From NCBI GenBank assembly GCA_034521575.1, contig JAXHMJ010000001.1, positions 62,001-126,000 of the forward strand: a stretch of DNA of 64,000 nucleotides, written 5' to 3'. The notes beneath the pieces were generated by a model. The model worked only from the letters and a program-made list of their open reading frames with translations, did not search any database and had not been told where the DNA came from. Positions 7,306-24,351 of this stretch are shown here, in pieces. This stretch comes from a candidate division KSB1 bacterium. Lineage in GTDB: Bacteria; Zhuqueibacterota; Zhuqueibacteria; Residuimicrobiales; Krinioviventaceae. Made by a program: the position numbers and the translations under genes. The stretch's first letter is position 1, and every line of letters begins with the position of its first letter.

Positions 7306-9804
7306 ATGAATTCTTTTCAATGCCGTCTTGTTTTCCTGTTTGTATTTTTGACCATTGCGGTTGTCTATGGCCAAAAAGCAGAGATCAATTACACACCTCT
7401 GCAGTCCGGGAATGAACTTGTTTTTAAAGAGATACCTAAAAACGGATATTATCAGCCCTTGGACCGGGTTGTTTTGACGGTGAACCGGCCGGGTGTTGTG
7501 GTTGTCCGGGATGCGACAGGTGATATTTATCTGAAATCTGATGTCGAGTCTGAGCTTGTTTTTCAGGCCGGTGGTGCATTGGGCACGCACCGCATCTGCC
7601 TGCAGGATTCCGATGGCAAGATATTGGATCAGGCCCGTTTTTATCTGGGTGCACAGACGCAAATTCGGGATAAGGGCGGCCGATACGAACGATTGCTGAA
7701 TACGCTGTACTGGACCATGGTGAAAAACTGGGGTGAAACCGAGGTGGTACGTCTGGACCAGTCTTTTTACAAATTTTTTGTCCGCTGGCTGCGCGACCAT
7801 GTTCATACATTAAAAGGTATGAAATATTTTTATGAGGATTTGAAAAGCGGTATTGATTTGTATGCTGAATATCAACGCGATGACGGGATGATCTATGATA
7901 ATATTTATCCGCGCCGTGAAAAAAAGAATTGGTGGGACAAACGTTTTCAGTATGGCGATTTTATTGAACATATTGACGATAATGCCTACGAGTTGAAACG
8001 CATCCCGGTTGAAAATGATGTTGAATATTTGTTTATTGAAGGGTTGTATTATACCTGGAAGGCCACGGGGGATGATGTGTGGATGCAGTCACACCTGGAC
8101 AATGCCCTGAAAGCGGTCGAGTACTCGCGAACGTCACCGTACCGCTGGTCTTTTGAATATGATTTGCTTAAACGCGGATTCACCATTGATACCTGGGATT
8201 TTCAGCCGGCAGAGGATGCAGCGCGTGTGGGCGGCGACATTATGGTGGTGGATACTGCCAGGACGCGGTTCGGTGTTATGTTCGGCGACAATACCGGTAT
8301 GGCCGCGGCCTGCGAGTATCTGGCTGAAATGCTGGAGACAGCGGGTCGGCACGTCAAAGCGACAGAGATCAGAGAGTTTGGTCAGAGCCTCAAACAGCGT
8401 CTGGATGAACTGGCCTGGAACGGCGAGTATTATATTCATCATGTTCCGGAAGATCGTTCAGTCAGGCGGAATTTCGGCGCAACGGACCAGAGTGAGCAGG
8501 TTTCGCTCTCCAATGCGTATTCTCTGAATCGCACCCTGACACATGAACAATGCGTTGCCATTATCAAAACCTACCAACAGATTCGGGATAGCATGCCGGA
8601 AACATCTCCCGGCGAATGGTATAGCATTTATCCGCCGTTTGAAACCGGCTTTCATCTGCCCAAATGGGAATACATGAATGGCGGCGTTACGCCGATCGTG
8701 GCCGGAGAGCTGGCACATGGAGCATTTGAACACGGATTCGAGAATTATGCTGCCGGAATATTGGAGCGCGTCGCCGGTCTGGCTTTGGAAACCGGTGATT
8801 ATCTGCATTGTGCTTATCGGGGCAAGGCGCCGGCAGCGGTGAATCGGGGTTTTAATCCGGTTTCATTGGCCGATGCCGGCAACTCGGTTTATCCCGGGGA
8901 CGAATCTCTTTTTAACGGCCAATCTTTTTCGGAAACTGCTGTATCGGATCGCCGCGCTGAATTTCATCATATCCCGTTTTATGTGCGTTATGCAGAGGAT
9001 CAGCAAACCTGCATCACTGTCAGCCGTTCGAATGAATGGACGGATCAGAGCAGCGTCAAAATTGAGCAACAGGCAGAATCCGTCTATTTCCTGCACTCCT
9101 CGGACCCGGTGCGGAGTCCGGGAGCGATTACTCTCAATTATGCTGACGGCACCCATTACACAGAGTATATCGTCAATCAGGATAATATCGGCAACTGGTG
9201 GCATACTGCCTCGAACGCATATAAAGCCTGGCGAAGTGACAATGAGGGACACTATGATGCATTGTATGTTTACGGCATGAATAACCCGTATCCGGGAAAA
9301 ACGATTAAAACGATCTCGTTTGCAGCCGGAAGCCCCAAGCGTTACTGGGTACGCGGGATAACCCTTTCGGATTATCCGGTGTATTTTCCGCCGGACATGA
9401 TATCCTACGGAATCCCGGATAATTGGGGCGCGGCAGCTGTGGTTTACGCGTTGATTGAAGGCCTGGCCGGTGTTAAAGACAGGGGGTCGGCATTTGACTC
9501 GGTATTGATTGCTCCGCGCTGGCGCGCAGCCGGTGTATCACAAGCTAACGCGGTGGTGAAATATGAAGCGAGCGGCGGTTATGCGGCGTACAATTATCAG
9601 TGCGGCAAAGACAGTGTTATCCTCGAATTGACCGGAAGCGGAGCCGGAGCAGCGGTGCGGATATTGATCGATGATCAAACCCCGTCCCGGGTTCAGGTTG
9701 ACGGTCAGCCTGTCCCGTTTGAGATCGACAGGGTTGAAGCATCACGATATGCCGTTTTTTCCATCTCTGAAAAAGGGGTGAATACAGTAAAACTGGTTTT
9801 CTGA
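7306..9804 (+). CDS. Secreted alpha/alpha-toroid-like glycosidase candidate
   Basis: An 832-residue protein with a signal peptide (residues 1-22, ending VYGQ) and SD gaggag. The N-terminal about 110 residues are beta-rich. The middle (about 130-500) has regular helical repeats with WLRDHVHTLKGMKYF, DDGMIYDNIYPRRE, ENDVEYLFIEGLYYTWKATGDD, DTWDFQPAEDA and EYMNGGVTPIVAGELAHGAF, as in six-hairpin (alpha/alpha)6 glycosidases. Acidic residues within these motifs are candidate catalytic residues. The last about 250 residues look like one or two beta-sandwiches. I cannot assign a CAZy family. The position next to GH3 and GH92 genes supports a role in glycan breakdown outside the cytoplasm. No gene follows before the 10012 terminator. 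Confidence 0.75.
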   Translation: MNSFQCRLVFLFVFLTIAVVYGQKAEINYTPLQSGNELVFKEIPKNGYYQPLDRVVLTVNRPGVVVVRDATGDIYLKSDVESELVFQAGGALGTHRICLQDSDGKILDQARFYLGAQTQIRDKGGRYERLLNTLYWTMVKNWGETEVVRLDQSFYKFFVRWLRDHVHTLKGMKYFYEDLKSGIDLYAEYQRDDGMIYDNIYPRREKKNWWDKRFQYGDFIEHIDDNAYELKRIPVENDVEYLFIEGLYYTWKATGDDVWMQSHLDNALKAVEYSRTSPYRWSFEYDLLKRGFTIDTWDFQPAEDAARVGGDIMVVDTARTRFGVMFGDNTGMAAACEYLAEMLETAGRHVKATEIREFGQSLKQRLDELAWNGEYYIHHVPEDRSVRRNFGATDQSEQVSLSNAYSLNRTLTHEQCVAIIKTYQQIRDSMPETSPGEWYSIYPPFETGFHLPKWEYMNGGVTPIVAGELAHGAFEHGFENYAAGILERVAGLALETGDYLHCAYRGKAPAAVNRGFNPVSLADAGNSVYPGDESLFNGQSFSETAVSDRRAEFHHIPFYVRYAEDQQTCITVSRSNEWTDQSSVKIEQQAESVYFLHSSDPVRSPGAITLNYADGTHYTEYIVNQDNIGNWWHTASNAYKAWRSDNEGHYDALYVYGMNNPYPGKTIKTISFAAGSPKRYWVRGITLSDYPVYFPPDMISYGIPDNWGAAAVVYALIEGLAGVKDRGSAFDSVLIAPRWRAAGVSQANAVVKYEASGGYAAYNYQCGKDSVILELTGSGAGAAVRILIDDQTPSRVQVDGQPVPFEIDRVEASRYAVFSISEKGVNTVKLVF

Positions 9805-10011
9805 ACAAGATCGGTGCGAGTTGAAACTTTTTGCTATGAGAACAAGTTAGATGTTAGTGTGAATATAAGGAATTGTTACTTGCTTTTTTATAAAAAAAGT
9901 TTTATCTTTTACTTTATTATTGTCAGGTACAGCTCTTTGGGATGCCAGTTATATGGAAGGATTGAAACGAAAACATTATTATCTAAATATTTGCCCCGGG
10001 CCTGAAAATAC
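9805..10011. other. Gene-free spacer, AT-rich
   Basis: No credible gene. A 63-codon open frame here (9814-10005) has neither a family-like protein nor an SD. The spacer separates the hydrolase cluster from the housekeeping block and ends in a strong terminator. Confidence 0.6.
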
Positions 10012-10044
10012 AAGTGCATGCGGATTTTCCGATGCACTTTTTTT
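10012..10044 (+). terminator. Rho-independent terminator closing the hydrolase cluster
   Basis: The stem aagtgcat-g-cgga / tccg-atgcactt has a short loop and is followed by tttttttat. It lies about 210 bp after the last hydrolase gene. An ATG at 10018 falls inside it and so cannot be the next gene's start. Confidence 0.85.
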
Positions 10045-10095
10045 ATATCTAATAGTGCACAAATAAATCTTGATGAAGAAAAGGAGAAACTTACC

Positions 10096-10815
10096 TTGCA
10101 TGTTACATTATCTGTGTTGAAAACGCTGCAAGATATAGATACAAAGCTTCAGGAGCTTGAAGAACGCCGCGGAGATTTACCTCAGCGCGTCCGGGAAATG
10201 AAAGCGAATGTTGAGGAAAAACGCAAAGACCTGCAGGATTTAAAAGATGACCGGGACGACAAGCGTTCTCTAAAATCCACCAGAGAAGGTGAGTTGGAAG
10301 ACAAGGATGAAAAGCTAAAAAAGTTGAAAAAGCAGCTCTATCAGGTAAAAACAAACAAGGAATATGATGCGATCACCAGCGAAATTGAACAGAGCCAGAC
10401 GCTGATGGATGAGATAGAGCTCGAGATTTTAGAACTGGACGAACGCCTTACAGAACTCGATGAGCAGATTAAAGAAGGATCCGGCAAGGTTGATGAAATG
10501 CAGGAGAATCTGGAAAAAAATACAAAAATTCTGGATTCAAAACTGGAAGAGACCAAAGAGCAGGAAGAGGATCTACAATCAGAGCGCGACAAGGTGGTTC
10601 AGGAACTGTCAAAGCCTCTACTCAATACATATGATAGAATTCGTAAAGCCAGAAGAGGCAAGGCGGTAGCTGTATTATTAAATGATACCTGCAGTGAATG
10701 CTCATCACGGGTTCCCCCGCAGCATGCACTGGAGATCCGTACCCACAAGAAAATGCATGTTTGTGAAGTTTGCGGACGCATTCTGGTGTGGTCGGAAGAG
10801 GAAGAGTCAGTGTAA
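10096..10815 (+). CDS. Coiled-coil C4 zinc-ribbon protein (CdsZ / DUF164 family)
   Basis: About 239 residues from a TTG start at 10096. That start has SD aaggag 9 bp upstream, whereas the in-frame ATG at 10018 lies in a terminator hairpin. Residues about 10-180 are a long charged coiled coil, and the C-terminus is a zinc ribbon with CSEC and CEVCG pairs. The family is widespread and usually next to rnpB or RNase H-type genes. Proposed roles concern RNA or nucleic-acid handling, but function is not settled. Here it lies directly upstream of the RNase P RNA gene, the conserved neighbourhood of the family. Confidence 0.9.
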   Translation: MHVTLSVLKTLQDIDTKLQELEERRGDLPQRVREMKANVEEKRKDLQDLKDDRDDKRSLKSTREGELEDKDEKLKKLKKQLYQVKTNKEYDAITSEIEQSQTLMDEIELEILELDERLTELDEQIKEGSGKVDEMQENLEKNTKILDSKLEETKEQEEDLQSERDKVVQELSKPLLNTYDRIRKARRGKAVAVLLNDTCSECSSRVPPQHALEIRTHKKMHVCEVCGRILVWSEEEESV

Positions 10816-14445: not shown

Positions 14446-14523
14446 CGGAACATATTTGATTACAAAACGTTAACGGGGTGGAACCCCCGTTGAACTGTAC
14501 ATGTAAATATATGGAAAAGGCTT

Positions 14524-16908
14524 ATGAAGAAAAAGTTTGAAGGGTTATTGACTAAAATTATGGGCGGATCCAGCACGGAACGTGAGCTGAAACGGCTGCG
14601 TCCGCTTGCAGATCATATCAATGAAATTTATGAGACGCTGGCCGAGCTGACCGAAGATGAATTAAAAGCCAAGACCAACGAGTTTAAATATAGATTGAGA
14701 ATGGGGGAAACACTCGATGATATTCTTCCCGAAGCCTATGCGGTGGTCAAAGAAGTCTGCCGACGGCTTGTCGGAAAAAAATGGACGGTTCGGGGAGAGG
14801 AAACCGAATGGAATATGGTGCCGTTTGATGTCCAGATTATGGGCGCCATCGTATTGCATGAAGGCAAAATTGCTGAAATGGCCACCGGTGAAGGTAAAAC
14901 GCTTGTGGCGACCATGCCGCTTTATTTAAACGCCCTGGAAGGCAAAGGCGCGCACTTGATCACGGTGAACGATTACCTGGCTCAGCGTGACTGCGAATGG
15001 ATGGGAGAAATTTATCGATATTTGGGATTGACGGTCTCTGCCATTCACAGCGATCAGGATCCTGAAGAACGAAAAAAAGCGTATCAAACGGATATCAGCT
15101 ATGGAACCAACAACGAGTTTGGTTTTGATTATTTGCGTGACAATATGGCAACGGATGTGTGGTCAGTGGTGCAGCGTCCACTGCATTATGCCATTATTGA
15201 TGAGGTCGATAGTGTTTTGATCGATGAGGCGCGAACCCCGTTGATTATTTCCGGCTCTGTGGGTGCTCCCCGCAATGTCTATAAAGAGCTGCGTCCCACT
15301 GTCGAACATTTGTATAAAAAGCAAAAAGAACTGGTGAGCCGGCTGCTCAAAGAGGGCAGGTCTCTGCTTGAGCAGGATCAGGAATATGCCGCACTGTTGA
15401 TTCTCAGAGCCCGGCGCGGTGATCCTAAAAATAAAGAATTGCTGGAACTGCTGACGTCAGAGTTTTGGATCAAAAAACTGATTGAACGCATACAGGGGCA
15501 GTTTGAGGTCAATAAGGAGATGTATAAAGTTGATCAGGAACTGTATTATACCATTGATGAAAAAAGCCATGTGGTCGATATTACGGAAAAGGGCCGTATC
15601 TTTTTATCCGGCGGCCAGGAACGAAATGTCGCAGATAAAATCCAGACTCTGGATGATATTGATAAAGTGCTGTCTCAGGCAAGTGAGCGCAAAGATGCAC
15701 AACGCTTTTTCACTCAGGACCCCTTTAGCGGTTATTGCAATGGCTTGACGTTTGACGGAAAGCTGGCGCTTTTGGGGCAAGATCATGTAAAAGAAGAGGA
15801 ACTTGCCGCTGTTGAAGCCCTGGATAAAAAACTGAATGCATTGTCTTATAAAGCAGAGTCAGACGGACGGCAGCAAAAGAGCAACAAACAGTCGGCATGG
15901 CATCATTTTTTCAAATTTCCGCGAAAAATGGATCGGGTGGTCGACGGACTGACGGAACAGGGAAAAAGCTACCTGACCGACGGCGAAGGTCTGGAAACAG
16001 AGAGCGTGGATGCGCTGGAACAAATGTTGGCTCAGATCCGCTCAATAGCGGATACTGAATCCGGGAAGAGCATTCCCAAGGGAATGCAGGATCAGCGCCG
16101 AAATGTACAGCGAATCTTTTTCGAGCATGACAAACAAACCGGCGCCCCCGTCGGATTGCGCGAGGAAGGCAAACTTGCTCTGCTCGCTGCCAAACGCGAT
16201 GCTGATTTTATGCAGGTTCCATTGATTATTCAGATCGATGAAATGCTTCAGTCCACCGAAGATCTGGCCAGTGGAAATCAGGATTATTTCGAGTTTACCG
16301 ATAACGGTAGATATGTGACTCATATCGCGGAAAAAGGCCGTATTTCTCTGCTCGGCGGTAATCCGGATCTTTATATTCTTCCTGACAGAAGCCAGGTTGA
16401 AGAACGCGACCGGATGATTCAGCAGTTGCTGGACCGGACATTGAATCAAACATCGTTTGATTACGCTGAACGTGTAAAAGCGGCTGAGCAGATACAGCAG
16501 GAACTGGAGTCGATTCATGCGCATATCGAAAGCACTGACGAAGCATCCCGAGACGAGGTTGTCAAAGCCTATTATGATACTGACTATCGGGATCCGGTCA
16601 CTGATGAACAGCTGCTTAAACTGACCGGGCACGGAAAGGCTTGTTTGCGCAACTGGAGTGAGCAGACCGAATCCATCATCGAACAACTGGATCAGGATCT
16701 GCAAGAGGGGAATGACGTATTTGAGATTAAAAACAACCGCATTGCAGGTCTAATGTCCAAAGAACTTGACTCTCTGCTGGGTGCTTCTTTTCAGGATACC
16801 GCTTCCCGGATTGACGCCTGGAACCAGTCGAATCTCGCCGCGGCGGATACTCCCTCGGTTGTATTGCGGGAACAGTCTGGATGCCGCACTGGGTGTTCCC
16901 GAACATGA
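14524..16908 (+). CDS. secA: Protein translocase ATPase SecA, N-terminal part (frameshifted giant SecA)
   Basis: SecA drives protein export through SecYEG. Nucleotide-binding domain 1 is normal: [14 protein letters not shown], Walker A MATGEGKT (near residue 120), VNDYLAQRD, and Walker B with [15 protein letters not shown] (near residue 226). The PPXD then starts as in Bacteroidetes SecA ([18 protein letters not shown], residues near 260), with the module [17 protein letters not shown] at about 345-361. After this come further degenerate copies of that module (about residues 395-420, 469-490, 533-562, 588-621, 683-711, 733-754). The frame breaks near 16868-16870. Removing one G from ggg joins residue R782 to [13 protein letters not shown] in the next frame, and the residues after the break ([12 protein letters not shown]) are out of frame. 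Read with the following entry this is one gene of about 2,067 codons. Start ATG, SD gaaaagg. Confidence 0.93.
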
Positions 16909-19900
16909 CGGCACCAGTTTATCGCGCCGCTTTGAAGAAGTTGAGCGAATTGATCGCGTTTTTCGGGGTGTTTTTGGAGCGGTCAGCCGTAACGATGTCT
17001 CGGATACCGAAAAGCGCAGATTGCTGCGCCGTTACTTTGAGATGGAAACCGCATTGGGGGAAAAGATCCAGCCTTCACCGGACCTGCCGATCAGCGGGTT
17101 GACCGAATCCGGTCGGCACCATCTGCTGGGTGATGCTGATGAGCGGGCTGCGGTTGCTGAGCGGTTGATCGAGTTGCTTGAAAATCCGGATACGGATCTG
17201 GAGTCGGTTTGTGACATGGCCCCGGAGGGCTATCCCATCCGTGTCAAATCACATGCCCGACATCATCTTGTAGACGGATTGCCGTATTTTGAATATTGGG
17301 AAAATTTAAAAAAATTCCGAAATGATATTCTGCAATTGAGTCAAAAAAAAGTGAAAACCCAGTCCGAATTGATGGGGTTGGTCCCCAAGGAATCCGAACA
17401 ATTGCGCCGTGATGGCATTCAGCTGAACAATCAGGAATTGTCCAATCTTCTCGGACGAATACACGCGCCCAATGCCAATATTACGCCGGAAGAGATTGAA
17501 TATTGGTATAATCTGAGTTTTAACGAACTGCCGCGTAAGAATCTTGAACAACGCCGGGATGAATTGTGGAGTGAATACACCCAGGTGGAAGAGCGTGTTC
17601 AAAACATCAGTCAGCTGCTGCGCGCCTATACTCTGTATCAGCGAGATGTGGATTATGTGGTCAAGACACCGGATGAACATGAAGCCCGCAGGCACGGCGG
17701 CGGTCAGGGACAAAAAGCCGTGATGATTGTGGATCAGTTTACCGGACGATTGATGCCCGGACGCCGGTTCAGTGAAGGACTGCACGAAGCGCTGGAAGCG
17801 AAAGAAAATGTACAGGTGCAGGCGGAAACCCAGACTCTGGCGACCATTACCCTGCAGAATTTCTTTCGAATTTACAACAAGCTCTCCGGTATGACCGGTA
17901 CGGCTGAAACCGAAGCCACCGAGTTCTGGAGCACCTATACGCTGGACGTCATTGTGGCTCCCACTCATAAACCTGTGGTGCGGGATGATTATGACGATGT
18001 GATTTACCGTACGCGTCGGGAAAAATACAATGCATTGATTGATGAGGCTCTGGAGCTGCATGAACAGGGACGTCCGGTGCTCATTGGAACGATTTCCGTT
18101 GAGGTCTCACAAATGCTGAGCGATATGCTGACGGCGCGCGACGTGCCGGTTGCCAATTGGTTGAAAAAGGACAATGTAGAAAAACAGCTGGAAACCGGCA
18201 AGTTCCATACGGTGTTGAACGCAAAGTTTCATAAAAAGGAAGCGGAAATTGTCAGAAAAGCCGGACTGCCCGGTACCATTACCATCGCCACCAATATGGC
18301 CGGACGTGGAACCGATATCAAACTGGCGCCCGGTGTGCGGGAAAAGGGAGGGCTCGCGATTTTGGGCTCGGAAAAACACGAAGCCCGTCGCATTGACCGT
18401 CAGTTGCGTGGCCGTGCGGGGCGACAAGGGGACCCCGGTTCTTCGAGGTTCTACCTGTCGCTCGAAGATGATCTGATGCGGCTTTTCGGATCCGACCGCA
18501 TTACCAATATCATGAGTCGTATGGGCTCTATGGAAGAGGGCGAGCGCATTGAACACCCGCTCATCACAAAATCCATTGAACGCGCTCAGAAAAAAGTTGA
18601 AGAACGCAACTTTGAAATCCGTAAGCATCTGCTCGAGTATGATGACGTGCTCAATGAGCAGCGTAAAATTATTTACAAACAACGTCAGAATCTTTTGGGT
18701 ATTGCTCAACCTCGGGATCTGGTGGAATCCAAAATCAAACGCTTTATCGGTGATGAGCAGGATCGGTCCACCTGGAAACTAAAAGAACTGCTGGAAAATC
18801 TGTATCAATATTTCGGTGTGGAGCTGGACCTTACGGCCGATGAGGCTGCTTCGATGGATATGGATGAAATCCGGGATAAACTCTCCGAATGGGTGGAACT
18901 GCAGACCTACCGCGAACGCCATTACGGCCTTTTGCAGGAACGTCATCGTATCTTTGGTTATTCCAGCATCGGCACTATTATACGAAACCTGGTGCATTTG
19001 AAAATAAAATTGCATGACGGAGGATCACGGGATACAAACAAGTGGAATTTTGAAGGTATTGGTTTTGAAATCTCCCGGATTTTCAAAACGACACCGGTCT
19101 GGTTAGACAATCCACAGGGTCTGGTTGGCGCAGATGCCGATGAGGTCATCAAACGGCTGGCTGATTGGGCTGTTGAGCAATACGGCCAGATGATATCCGG
19201 GCAAAAACAGGTTATCGACCGGATTATGATGCGGCATATTGACTTTGATACAACGCTCAAGGTTTATATCATGGGGTTGATGGACAGCTTTATGCCGGAG
19301 AGCGAGCCTAAAATCAACTGGAATGTTGACGGGTTTTATAAGGAATGGGAACTCTTGTTTGACGGGCAGCCGGATATCCCGCGCAATGAAATTCACAATA
19401 TTGCCAGACCCCGGTTGCGCGAGCTGCTGTGGAACTGGCTGACGGAACAGCAGATTAACCAACGCGATGATTTGACCATACGGCATCGGATATTCGGCCA
19501 GTTTACCCCTGTTCGTTTCATTGATGCGGCGGTTCATTTTGTTTTGGCAGACCATGAAGAATTGACAGACCTGTCACCGCAGCTGAATGACCGGTTAAAG
19601 CAATTCTTTTTGACGGATTTTCAGGTTGATCCAGAATCAAAGCAGATGATGCGTGCTCAGATCAACCAGCAGGCGAGACGGGCCTTTTCCTCTTTTCTCG
19701 ATCAGCAGATCGATGCCTATGATGATTTTATGCTCTCCCGGGCAGACAACCTTGAAATACTGGAAGCGGCCATTGTCAGTAAAACAGACGATATCCTGAG
19801 TCAGCATCAATCAGCCACGGACGCACAACCGGCTTTGCGCAATGCCATGCAACGAATGTTTTCCAGTTATCCGGAACTCGCGGTACCGGAACAGCGTGAT

Positions 19901-20728
19901 CCGGCCGCAATTGCGTCGTTCAAATCCGATCTGATCGCCTGGGGAAACAGTTTCTATACCATGTTCTCGGACCGTGTCGACCGTTTTTACCAGGAACGAT
20001 TGAGTGGTGAAATCGTATTTGATTCCGTGATCAGCATGATCGATGATACGATTTACAATATGATTCGTAATGTTCTCGGCAATTCCGAAACCCTGACTGT
20101 CGATCAGGTGCGACGCCTGGAAAATGAGAGCCGCTTGATTTTTCGACAAACACCGCGCCTGTCGATTGAGGGTGATGAAACGCTTGATCCCAATGCAGCG
20201 ATGGACGAACTGAGCGAATGGTCAAAGAATGTTTATTTCAAGCGCGTTCAGGAAATCGGAAAACAGACCGCCATCCGTTTTGAACGACTGCATATTCTGG
20301 ATAAAATAGACAGGAACTGGCGTCAGCATTTGAGCGGTGTGGATGAACTTCGGGAAGGTATTGGATTGCGCGGGTATGCACAAAAAGACCCGCTGATTGA
20401 GTACAAACGCGAAGCTTTTAAAATGTTTGAAAATACACTGGAAACCACCAACCGCGAAACGGTCAATTCCCTTTTCCGGGCCTTTGATATCGGCGGTGAA
20501 ATGGAAGATACGAATTTGAAACGTATTGAACCGCAGAATTTTAAAACTTCGCATTCGCGGGTTGAAATGTTTAAAAACATGCAAAAGCGGCAGCAAAATC
20601 AACCTCAGCCCGGCCGTTCGCGTCCGTCTGTGAAAACGGTGGTTAAAAACACCAATGTCGGCAGAAATGATCCCTGTCCGTGCGGCAGTGGTAAGAAATA
20701 TAAAAATTGTTGTGGTAAAGTGGCATAA
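16868..20728 (+). CDS. secA: Protein translocase ATPase SecA, C-terminal part (after the frameshift)
   Basis: Continuation of SecA in the +1 frame. It begins with the rest of the expanded PPXD ([15 protein letters not shown] and further material to about 17600). It then returns to normal Sec[95 protein letters not shown] (end of NBD2) and [19 protein letters not shown] second insertion of about 400-450 residues (roughly 18690-20250) fills the helical scaffold/wing region with W...L..F..W....Y-type helical units. The normal IRxRGYxQKDP-type segment returns as [20 protein letters not shown]. The C-terminus carries the SEC-C zinc motif [13 protein letters not shown], which in other SecA proteins contacts SecB or ribosomes. 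No own start or SD exists. Confidence 0.93.
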
Positions 20729-20859: not shown

Positions 20860-21327
20860 ATGGATAAAAAACTGTTCGATGTACTGGAAATGGTGCTCAA
20901 GGAATTACAGGAAAGTTTTGCTGGAGAGATACCGGTACAACATGTCATCGACTTTCTCGAAGAACAAGGGTTTTCTGATGATGAGATATCCCTGGCTATG
21001 TCCTGGTTATTGGGAAATGAGGATACCGCTCAGAATTTAATTGATAAACCCGGCAAATCATTGCCGCGTCCTATGTGGCGTTCATTGAACGAAGATGAAC
21101 AGGAAGCCATTTCTCCGAATGCGTTTGGATATCTTTTTCGTCTTCGGGAACTTGATGTTTTAACAGACTCGATGATGGAAAGAATTATTGATCAGGCTGT
21201 GCGTCTTCACACCACTCATCTCGACGTGGAAGATATGAAAGAACTGGTCACAGCCGTTGTGCTTGAGTATGAAGATAATGCGTCTTCAGGTTTTTTCCAG
21301 TTTATATCTAATCAAAATCCGCATTAA
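20860..21327 (+). CDS. smg: Smg / DUF494 family protein
   Basis: 155 residues. The family is recognised by the N-terminal VLEMVLKELQESF followed by a predicted helical DNA-binding-like region (VIDFLEEQGFSDDEISLAMSWL), and by the C-terminal pattern of RELDVLTDSMMERIIDQA and a segment close to LEDLKWLVLMVL (here VEDMKELVTAVVL). In many bacteria smg sits next to dprA and topA. The topA-like gene following 14 bp downstream repeats that order. The molecular function is unknown. Confidence 0.88.
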   Translation: MDKKLFDVLEMVLKELQESFAGEIPVQHVIDFLEEQGFSDDEISLAMSWLLGNEDTAQNLIDKPGKSLPRPMWRSLNEDEQEAISPNAFGYLFRLRELDVLTDSMMERIIDQAVRLHTTHLDVEDMKELVTAVVLEYEDNASSGFFQFISNQNPH

Positions 21328-21341
21328 AAAACCGTGAGGTT

Positions 21342-23429
21342 ATGAACAATAGACTTTTGGTGGTGGAATCTCTTCAAAAAAGAGATACACTCGGCAAATT
21401 TTTTAAAGATGCAACAATAATACTCGCCGAACCTGTTCCGCGGACAGGGATCGGCGAGTTTGGTTTTAAGCAGAAAATAGACGAGACAGTACGGGATTGG
21501 CAGCCGGATACAGCCGGATCGGTCTATTTGGCATTTGATCCGGATACGCAAGGGGACGCGTTGGCGGCATTGTGGAAACTGGCCCTGGAGGAAAGAGGGA
21601 TACGGGTAAACAGGCTGCCGCTTCAGAAAATCACCAAAAAAGCGGTGAAACATGCGTTTGAACAAAAGTATCCTGTAAACTACCAGCTGTTCAAGGTCCA
21701 GCGGGAAAAAGAACGATTTTTACAGTCATTGTCGGATAAAATGTTTGCAAAGAACGGCGACACAGAGACCCCTGAGCTTCCGGTTTTTCTGGAAGCAATG
21801 ATCGGACTGGATTTTTTACGTGACAGCCGATATGCCGTAGATTTTATTCCACGCAATCAAAAATGGATTGTGCAGCTGCAATTGCACGACTGCGAAAAGC
21901 CGTTGACAGCCAGACTTGAATCCCAGACCGGCGAACCGCTGTGTTTTGACAACAAAGAAACGGCAAAAGCTTATATTTATGATTTGAAAAACAAAACAAT
22001 ACGGTTTGAGCAGGTTCTGAAACATGAATCCACTGTGGCACCCGAGCCGCCGTTCAATACTCTGGCGCTGCTTAAAGCGGCGGCGGCATTAAAGTATACC
22101 CCGGATCAAGCGCTTGAAATAATCCGGCAATTATATGAAGGCATTGATATCGGATGCGGAAATCCGCAGGGCTTGATCACATTTTATTTAACGGATTCAA
22201 CCCGGATGAACGAAAAAGCGCTTTTGGATGTGCGGGAGTTTATTCTCAACCACTATGGAGTTGAGTATGTTCCCAAATCTCCGAGATTTAAAGGTGAGGA
22301 CGGGCTGACAGCCGTAATCCCGGTGAACCCGCGGTATACGCCCAGACAGATTAAAAAACACCTCAATCCGGATCAGTATGTTCTGTATGATTTGATCTGG
22401 ACCCGCTGTGTGGCCTCACAAATGGGTGATAGCAAAAGACAGTTTTTTGACTATGTGTTTTCATATACAAATACCAGGGATCATCGGCTTGTGGCCCATA
22501 CTCACCGGGAGCTTGCGCGCGGGTTTTATCAGTTGTTAAACACCCCCGGATCTGCGCATACAAACACCCTGTTTGAGTTTTATCCGGAGCAAAATGTGCA
22601 GTGTCTGGATTTCGCTCTGGTTCGTCAAACTCCTGATTCGCATTCAAAAAGCCGGTTGGAAGTTTTTCTTGATATTTTGAATCATTCGCGTCTTGTTGAT
22701 GCGGATGAAGTTGATCGTTTGTGGGAATCACTTTGTCAATGGGAATTGTTAACTATACAAGGAGATGATATTGCTTTAACATCCCGTACGGAGCAATTGA
22801 TCGACGATATCAAAAATAAATATCCCGGTCTGTTCAATACCGAGTTTATCCGGCTAACCAAAAAGCAGTGGCGGAAAGCCCGTTTGGGAAAAAAAACACC
22901 GGAAAATGTTGCGCAGGATCTTGATAAATTGATTCAAGACTTTTCGTCCGCACTTGTTTGTCCTGTGTGCAGCGGAAAAATAGTCCGGGATGCAAAGGGA
23001 CGGGCGCGTTGCGAACACTATCCCTCCACATGTGGTTATCATGAGACAGGCGGGAAGCATAGCATTAAAATATGTCCAGCGTGCGGTGGAGAACTGGTAG
23101 AACGTCATGGAAAGTATGGCCGGTTTTTTGCATGTATAAATTTTCCGGATTGCACTCACACCGAGTCGTTTTCGATTGGTGTTCGCTGTCCCAATGAATC
23201 GTGTGCCGGAACTATTGTTGAACGTCGCACAAAGTGGGGACAGTTATTTTACGGATGCGATCGTTATCCCGCTTGCAAATTTGCCTCCTGGCTAAAGCCT
23301 GTGAATATGGCATGTATGTACTGCGGGCACAGATATCTTGTGGAAAGCGAGGATAGCGCTGGAATCAAAATGAGTTGTCCCAAATGCAAATCGACTGTTA
23401 AGGAGAGTATGGAATTCCAACGAGTATAG
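21342..23429 (+). CDS. Topoisomerase I (type IA) homologue with degenerate active site
   Basis: 695 residues. The layout is that of bacterial TopA: an N-terminal Toprim (LLVVESLQK, then YLAFDPDTQGDAL), TITKKAV-like PLQKITKKAVKHAF, a central region with LYEGIDIG.., LITFYLTDSTR, YTPRQIKKHLNPDQYVLYDLIWTRCVASQM, and four C-terminal Cys4 zinc ribbons (from CPVCSGKIV near residue 545 to CPKCKS). Catalytic parts are changed. The Toprim DxDREGE becomes DPDTQGD. The Tyr of IT-Y-MRTDST is Phe at position 281 (a Tyr follows at 282) and the next Arg is Leu. The HEAIRP motif reads LTAVIPV, and the SAGRVQS segment is missing. The length is a little short of usual TopA (about 750-900). It is followed by a xer recombinase, a classical topA neighbourhood. 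Strand passage by the known mechanism looks unlikely, but DNA binding is likely retained. Confidence 0.85.
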   Translation: MNNRLLVVESLQKRDTLGKFFKDATIILAEPVPRTGIGEFGFKQKIDETVRDWQPDTAGSVYLAFDPDTQGDALAALWKLALEERGIRVNRLPLQKITKKAVKHAFEQKYPVNYQLFKVQREKERFLQSLSDKMFAKNGDTETPELPVFLEAMIGLDFLRDSRYAVDFIPRNQKWIVQLQLHDCEKPLTARLESQTGEPLCFDNKETAKAYIYDLKNKTIRFEQVLKHESTVAPEPPFNTLALLKAAAALKYTPDQALEIIRQLYEGIDIGCGNPQGLITFYLTDSTRMNEKALLDVREFILNHYGVEYVPKSPRFKGEDGLTAVIPVNPRYTPRQIKKHLNPDQYVLYDLIWTRCVASQMGDSKRQFFDYVFSYTNTRDHRLVAHTHRELARGFYQLLNTPGSAHTNTLFEFYPEQNVQCLDFALVRQTPDSHSKSRLEVFLDILNHSRLVDADEVDRLWESLCQWELLTIQGDDIALTSRTEQLIDDIKNKYPGLFNTEFIRLTKKQWRKARLGKKTPENVAQDLDKLIQDFSSALVCPVCSGKIVRDAKGRARCEHYPSTCGYHETGGKHSIKICPACGGELVERHGKYGRFFACINFPDCTHTESFSIGVRCPNESCAGTIVERRTKWGQLFYGCDRYPACKFASWLKPVNMACMYCGHRYLVESEDSAGIKMSCPKCKSTVKESMEFQRV

Positions 23430-23433
23430 ACTG

Positions 23434-24351
23434 GTGACTTTTAACGACTGTTTACATTCATTTTATAATTATCTGCGTGTTGAACGCAACGCCAGTGATA
23501 ATACCCTGGCTGCTTACAAAACAGATATAGAACTGTTTTTGATCTATTTGAACGATTCAAATCAAGGCCGGGAAATAACTGTTGAGGCGTTGCAGAAAAC
23601 CATGATTCGCGGTTATTTGTCGTATTTGTACCGGCATGATTACAGCAAAACGAGTGCGGCGCGCAAACTGGCGGCTTTGCGCACGTTTTGCCGTTACCTG
23701 GTGAGGCAGGGAGTGCTGAAACACAATCCCACCCTGGGTATTGCAACGCCAAAACTGGAAAAGCGGCTGCCGGATTTTTTGACAAAGGAAGAAGTGCGGC
23801 ATGTGCTGCAGCAGCCGGATGCCGGTACATTTGAAGGATTGCGCGATTTTGTTATCCTGGAACTGTTTTACGCCACGGGATTACGAGTCAGTGAAGTGGC
23901 CGGGCTGGAATATAGAAACGTTCTTTGCAAGGAGGGTGTTATCCGTGTGGTTGGCAAGGGCCGTAAGGAACGACTGGTGCAGACCGGAAAAGAGTTGATG
24001 ACACACCTTGATTATTATTTGGATCGGCTTGTTTCATTGTACAAGCGGGCGTTATCCCCGAAAGACCGACTGTTTGTTGATGCCCAACTCAAACCGCTGA
24101 CCCGATTTCAGGTAGCAGGTCTGGTGCGCAAATATGTGTCCCGTGTGGCGGATGATAAAAAAGCCCATCCGCATGCATTGCGCCATAGTTTTGCGACTCA
24201 TCTCCTAAATGAAGGCGCAGATTTGATGTCTGTTAAGGAAATGCTCGGACATGAAAATTTGAGCACCACTCAGATTTACACCCACATGTCTGCAGATCAT
24301 TTGAAACGGATTTATAAAAAATATCATCAAAGAGATCGTGAATCTAAATGA
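23434..24351 (+). CDS. xerC: Tyrosine recombinase XerC/XerD
   Basis: A 305-residue site-specific recombinase, probably for resolving chromosome dimers at dif. An N-terminal SAM-like core-binding domain (FYNYLRVERNASDNTLAAYKTDI) precedes the catalytic domain. The catalytic residues are in place: Arg in YATGLRVSEVAGL, Lys in VVGKGRKERLV, His-Arg in HPHALRHSFATHLL, His in MLGHENLSTTQ, and the nucleophile Tyr in IYTHMS. The start is GTG at 23434, four bases after the topA-like stop. Which of XerC or XerD it is cannot be decided here. Confidence 0.93.
   Translation: MTFNDCLHSFYNYLRVERNASDNTLAAYKTDIELFLIYLNDSNQGREITVEALQKTMIRGYLSYLYRHDYSKTSAARKLAALRTFCRYLVRQGVLKHNPTLGIATPKLEKRLPDFLTKEEVRHVLQQPDAGTFEGLRDFVILELFYATGLRVSEVAGLEYRNVLCKEGVIRVVGKGRKERLVQTGKELMTHLDYYLDRLVSLYKRALSPKDRLFVDAQLKPLTRFQVAGLVRKYVSRVADDKKAHPHALRHSFATHLLNEGADLMSVKEMLGHENLSTTQIYTHMSADHLKRIYKKYHQRDRESK

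Follow-up and report, generated by a model that had tools for sequence, protein, structure and literature searches.

The open reading frame at 21342..23429 on the forward strand of the window (the whole stretch of 64,000 nucleotides analysed here) encodes a catalytically degenerate relative of DNA topoisomerase I (TopA). On the evidence of position and sequence the gene is the displaced ancestral topA of the class (Zhuqueibacteria), still in its ancestral operon. We consider it probable, at roughly 70%, that this smg-linked topA has been replaced in DNA relaxation, and that its product is now a non-cutting factor that binds single-stranded DNA (ssDNA). All of the evidence on the degenerate TopA is sequence evidence, and most of the relatives are represented by draft genomes. 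Type IA topoisomerases are enzymes under strong constraint, and a literature search for dead type IA paralogues found no full-length dead enzyme conserved across a bacterial order. Here, all the stages of replacement (intact, dead but full-length, toprim-less and deleted) occur at one fixed locus within one class, in a series that amounts to a natural dissection of the role of the zinc tail apart from catalysis. The replacement also offers a testable origin for the E. coli protein YrdD, the function of which has been described as unknown or merely suggested.

A topoisomerase I with its catalytic centre taken apart

The frame is uninterrupted and specifies 695 aa. The product matches the Pfam families Topoisom_bac (7e-25, residues 175-424) and Zn_ribbon_Top1 (5e-24), both over the cut-off, and a Pfam search gave no Toprim match. 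Against the TopA equivalog model TIGR01051 it scores 164 bits, falling short of the cut-off of 456, compared with 809 bits for an intact class TopA. Its homologous core and C4 ribbons, encoded at the topA locus, nevertheless mark it as a descendant of the TopA superfamily. It presumably belongs to the same toroidal type IA fold family as the E. coli-type enzyme (EcTOP1, PDB 4RUL), but the two are only 24% identical over part of the core and their C-terminal domains differ. (An AlphaFold model of the whole protein, made from four sequences, had a mean pLDDT of 50, too poor for a fold search.)

Residue equivalences were taken from an alignment (A1) and are given in E. coli TopA numbering; all features are on the forward strand. 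The start of the toprim domain (residues 1-10, 21342..21371) keeps the equivalent of E9, in VVES, and K13, D111 and D113 are likewise retained, so that both metal-binding Asp residues of DxDxE are present. The third acidic residue of the triad is gone: AFDPDTQGDA (21531..21560, with DPDTQGD as residues 66-72) stands for ATDPDREGEA, E115 having become Q. At 21777..21824, LPVFLEAMIGLDFLRD is found in place of the class-enzyme LSAGRVQSVALRLI, with the loss of R195. Around the nucleophile position (22170..22211), GLITFYLTDSTRMN replaces GLITYMRTDSTR; F281-Y282-L283 align with Y319-M320-R321 of E. coli, the active-site Tyr319 of the MRTDS context thus being Phe281 and Arg321 being Leu283. Finally, GLTAVIPV is found for DAHEAIRPT (22302..22334), and His365 is gone. 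The alignment therefore bears out the features that the original prediction had listed, namely Phe at the nucleophile position, DPDTQGD, LTAVIPV for HEAIRPT, the missing SAGRVQ and four zinc ribbons. From what is known of E. coli TopA, a protein without the residues of type IA chemistry is not expected to catalyse by that chemistry.

Losses of the same kind are seen in 14 positional orthologues from other genomes of the order (Residuimicrobiales). R321 is lost in all the orthologues examined, and E115, R195 and H365 are, like it, essentially lost (from all or nearly all orthologues in the order). The canonical Tyr persists in two relatives (G007 and G012), the other catalytic residues of which have been lost. 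Might the protein still be catalytic, through changed chemistry or a relocated nucleophile? The original prediction had offered Tyr282, one residue further on, in this role. FY or CY does occupy the 281/282 place in G000, G001, G008 and G002, both toprim Asp residues are kept in G000, and E9 is kept or replaced by Asp in most orthologues of the order; but these four are the only ones among 12 orthologues examined to have the +1 Tyr, the place being taken by Pro in most of the others. Moreover, R321, E115, R195 and H365 are lost also where the +1 Tyr is present, and three of the four genomes with it have lost the second toprim Asp. A takeover by Tyr282 is thus not supported, and we regard residual catalysis of any kind as very improbable.

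A chance pattern, a sequencing error or a mixed-up frame in the window can be ruled out, as the same losses recur in orthologues from other assemblies. When orthologues were aligned, as had been proposed, the losses turned out to be common to the order; elsewhere in the class the orthologues are intact. It had been anticipated that intact orthologues would signify sequence error or decay. Such orthologues do exist outside the order, but its members have the losses in common and have preserved the reading frame, so that neither sequence error nor plain decay applies.

The locus in the order and the class

The degenerate topA lies 14 bp downstream of smg (DUF494; 20860..21327, identified by Pfam at 2e-16 and by synteny) and 4 bp upstream of a conserved neighbour, the xer tyrosine recombinase gene (23434..24351), both in the same orientation. 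It is the positional orthologue of the class topA, and the classical topA-xer position that had been assigned to it is upheld. The operon secA-smg-topA-xer-hpf-hprK is conserved in the order; of five outgroup genomes, from other orders, in which the locus was read, four have it too. In the class, smg is a conserved operon neighbour of topA; in E. coli it adjoins yrdD. The outgroup TopA proteins are of the ancestral type, about 750-790 aa long and intact in all motifs (one does not have the exact string ITYMRTDS, though M and R are kept in the alignment).

Within the order, the state of the locus was compared across 22 genomes, leaving aside G009 and G017, which could not be judged. Degenerate topA frames remain open across five families. 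The product is full-length in families f1 and f4 and in one f3 genome, whereas f5 and three f2 genomes have lost the toprim domain, leaving a product of about 480-572 aa. The gene is missing altogether from G010, G011, G014, G015 and G018, in which smg and xer are adjacent or within 155 bp of each other. Because it has been lost outright in at least five members of the order, its function must be dispensable. In G021 (L049 3310-4960) the dead TopA ends after two ribbons, some 190 bp before xer, which is possibly a further step of reduction.

The neighbouring secA (about 14520-20728 of the window) is itself unusual: SecA of the order is about 2060-2080 aa long (other examples are L068 2852-9073, L070, L072 and L073), compared with 1050-1080 aa in the rest of the class. 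By Pfam, the DEAD part is separated from the preprotein-binding part by some 700 extra residues, and a further 550 or so separate the P-loop part from the wing/scaffold part.

An E. coli-type TopA elsewhere in the genome

Where, then, is the working enzyme? A search of the genome with PF01131, in line with the original call for an intact topA, gave a single other place, on contig C5 at 603.9-606.5 kb. The gene there is an E. coli-type topA with intact LATDLDREGE, SAGRVQ, ITYMRTDS and HEAIRPT, and its product shares 62-63% identity with E. coli K-12 TopA in the first and last thirds and 42% over a middle piece. A genome devoid of a working topA is thereby ruled out, and this second TopA is likely to be the working enzyme.

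In the assembly the C5 gene falls into three frames. Since the sequence can be read across the breaks, the E. coli-type topA of relatives is intact in most genomes, and secA of the window is split as well, the breaks are, on this sequence evidence, most likely indel errors of assembly. True inactivation is disfavoured, the three frames being 56-71% identical to the G019 protein and secA being frameshifted too. The secA break lies at about 16865-16915 of the window, where a tblastn alignment with SecA of G011 switches frame; relatives have one frame, and an indel error is probably responsible. Near the E. coli-type topA of the genome (L005), the neighbouring reading frames at 7449-9912 and 9831-10783 resemble single genes broken by frameshifts, which again suggests indels in the same assembly.

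The distribution of the E. coli-type enzyme was surveyed with the protein of G002, which aligns end to end with E. coli TopA. It was found in 20 of the 22 genomes of the order, mostly at 63-80% identity (some matches are fragments at contig ends); the two genomes giving no match are 73% and 78% complete. No E. coli-type TopA was found in 41 other genomes of the class, where matches were of 33-49% identity and of the ancestral type, and none of 19 further genomes of the phylum gave a match reaching the E. coli-type score. In a tree, E. coli TopA was placed among the E. coli-type copies of the order. The dead proteins are so long-branched in a tree of all three groups that their placement is unreliable, and we relied instead on locus and tail similarity. 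The distribution and the intact motifs suggest that the E. coli-type TopA, at its separate locus, took over relaxation. The old TopA, freed from catalysis, would then have lost the environment of its nucleophile and, to a large extent, the chemistry of its DNA gate and toprim domain.

What selection has kept

The degenerate protein has four complete zinc ribbons, with 16 Cys in all, between residues 540 and 682. They are encoded at 22959..23033 (ribbon 1), 23073..23153 (ribbon 2), 23187..23276 (ribbon 3) and 23313..23387 (ribbon 4), with four Cys in each as judged from the alignment. In ribbon 2, F595 corresponds to F616 of E. coli TopA, and in ribbon 3 F636 occupies the stacking position. The equivalent residues of the E. 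coli enzyme are F616 and Y728, which make stacking contacts with bases of ssDNA (PMC4678816).

To gauge retention, 13 dead proteins were scored at the 237 sites that do not vary among 16 class enzymes. The proportion kept was 83% in the zinc tail and 52% in domains II/III, as against 41% in the toprim domain and 23% each in the SAGRVQ region and in the stretch after domains II/III; of the class-invariant zinc Cys, 97% were kept. In ribbons 2 and 3, the Phe that precedes the third Cys by three residues was retained in 11 of 11 cases. Two congeneric pairs were suitable for estimation of dN/dS (NG86 with bootstrap; a third pair was saturated and uninformative). The values were 0.197 (bootstrap 0.12-0.34) for the C-terminal 380 codons of G001/G006, and 0.232 (0.16-0.31) over 479 codons of the toprim-less form in G016/G020. 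Ratios of 0.20-0.23 indicate that the surviving degenerate genes are under purifying selection. Constraint is laxer, by up to about fourfold, than for most neighbouring genes, which gave values from 0 to 0.21.

One might suppose that a redundant topA is simply eroding, slowly and without function, towards loss. Five genomes without the gene and others without toprim are what such erosion would give, and the relaxed constraint and the two ribbons of G021 would be equally in keeping with it; these same points (relaxed dN/dS, the shortened tail in G021 and outright losses) count against a retained role in ssDNA binding. Neutral decay, though, should bring dN/dS near 1 and scattered stops. The frames are instead open in five families, the zinc Cys are almost all in place, and dN/dS is close to 0.2, the bootstrap range staying under 0.4 even for the toprim-less form. 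We therefore think functionless decay unlikely; dN/dS and Cys retention likewise disfavour the idea that the window holds a pseudogene.

These observations lend indirect support to non-enzymatic DNA binding, because catalytic loss is order-wide and the ribbons and stacking aromatics are under purifying selection. This was the better of the two options in the original prediction, although the accompanying term 'paralogue' has to be dropped, since what stands in the ancestral operon is the ancestral topA itself. In the reading that we prefer, the zinc-ribbon tail remained under strong purifying selection after the swap and, by comparison with E. coli TopA and YrdD, the aromatics of ribbons 2 and 3 would stack on bases in underwound or transcribed DNA. 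RNA polymerase is a possible site of action, and the degenerate core would serve as a scaffold.

A different emphasis would make the dead TopA chiefly a scaffold, working through a protein partner (the acquired TopA, Xer, Smg or RNA polymerase) and not via ssDNA. Many of the sites retained in domains II/III (52% of the class-invariant set) are structural, the gene sits in a tight operon with smg and xer, and TopA zinc domains are stated to bind RNA polymerase (PMC4678816). The full retention of the ssDNA-stacking aromatics does not fit easily with such a role, and we give it a low probability.

YrdD as a possible end point

The preferred reading, of an old TopA kept for its ssDNA-binding tail, has a possible counterpart in E. 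coli YrdD (b3283). Like the 695-aa protein, YrdD has four co-linear zinc ribbons, smg as a neighbouring gene (the K-12 order is smf-smg-yrdD-tsaC) and an E. coli-type TopA alongside, encoded elsewhere, by a gene that adjoins cysB. It differs in being only 180 aa long and consisting of ribbons only, whereas in the 695-aa protein about 535 residues of degenerate topoisomerase core are still attached, so that its ribbons do not stand alone. The smg-linked TopA of class outgroups (L018-L034) agrees with the 695-aa protein in locus, domain order and four-ribbon tail, but there, as in Neisseria, the catalytic centre is intact. In Neisseria meningitidis the order is dprA-smg-topA, and this topA encodes the only topoisomerase I and is essential (PMC5817196).

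Over 159 aa, YrdD shares 43% identity with the tail of a class TopA (L018; 1e-43); it is 37% identical to the 695-aa protein (7e-28), compared with 30% over 103 aa (7e-7) for the tail of E. coli TopA itself. Because it matches the class tail far better than the tail of E. coli TopA, and is encoded beside smg, yrdD looks like a remnant of a smg-linked topA and the product of the same process carried to completion. Our literature search found no paper deriving yrdD from smg-linked topA. Earlier work described the resemblance of YrdD to the C-terminal parts of TopA proteins, that of B. subtilis among them, giving its function as unknown (PMC545778); Zn-dependent ssDNA binding by YrdD has been reported, as cited in PMC4678816.

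The old gene of the window may thus represent a half-way stage towards YrdD, which would be the end state, with the tail alone left in a cell that has an E. coli-type TopA. A bolder proposal, which we offer tentatively and hold to be somewhat doubtful, is that the dead full-length topoisomerase is a dedicated factor for ssDNA or transcription bubbles beside the new TopA, and that YrdD is a factor of the same kind, reduced to ribbons and reached independently after the same swap.

We also draw attention to a second, short TopA of 615 aa in one genome of the class, G025 (L083, C14:637996-639654), which is present beside the main TopA and has DPDREGE and ITYFRTDS, without the exact SAGRVQ string.
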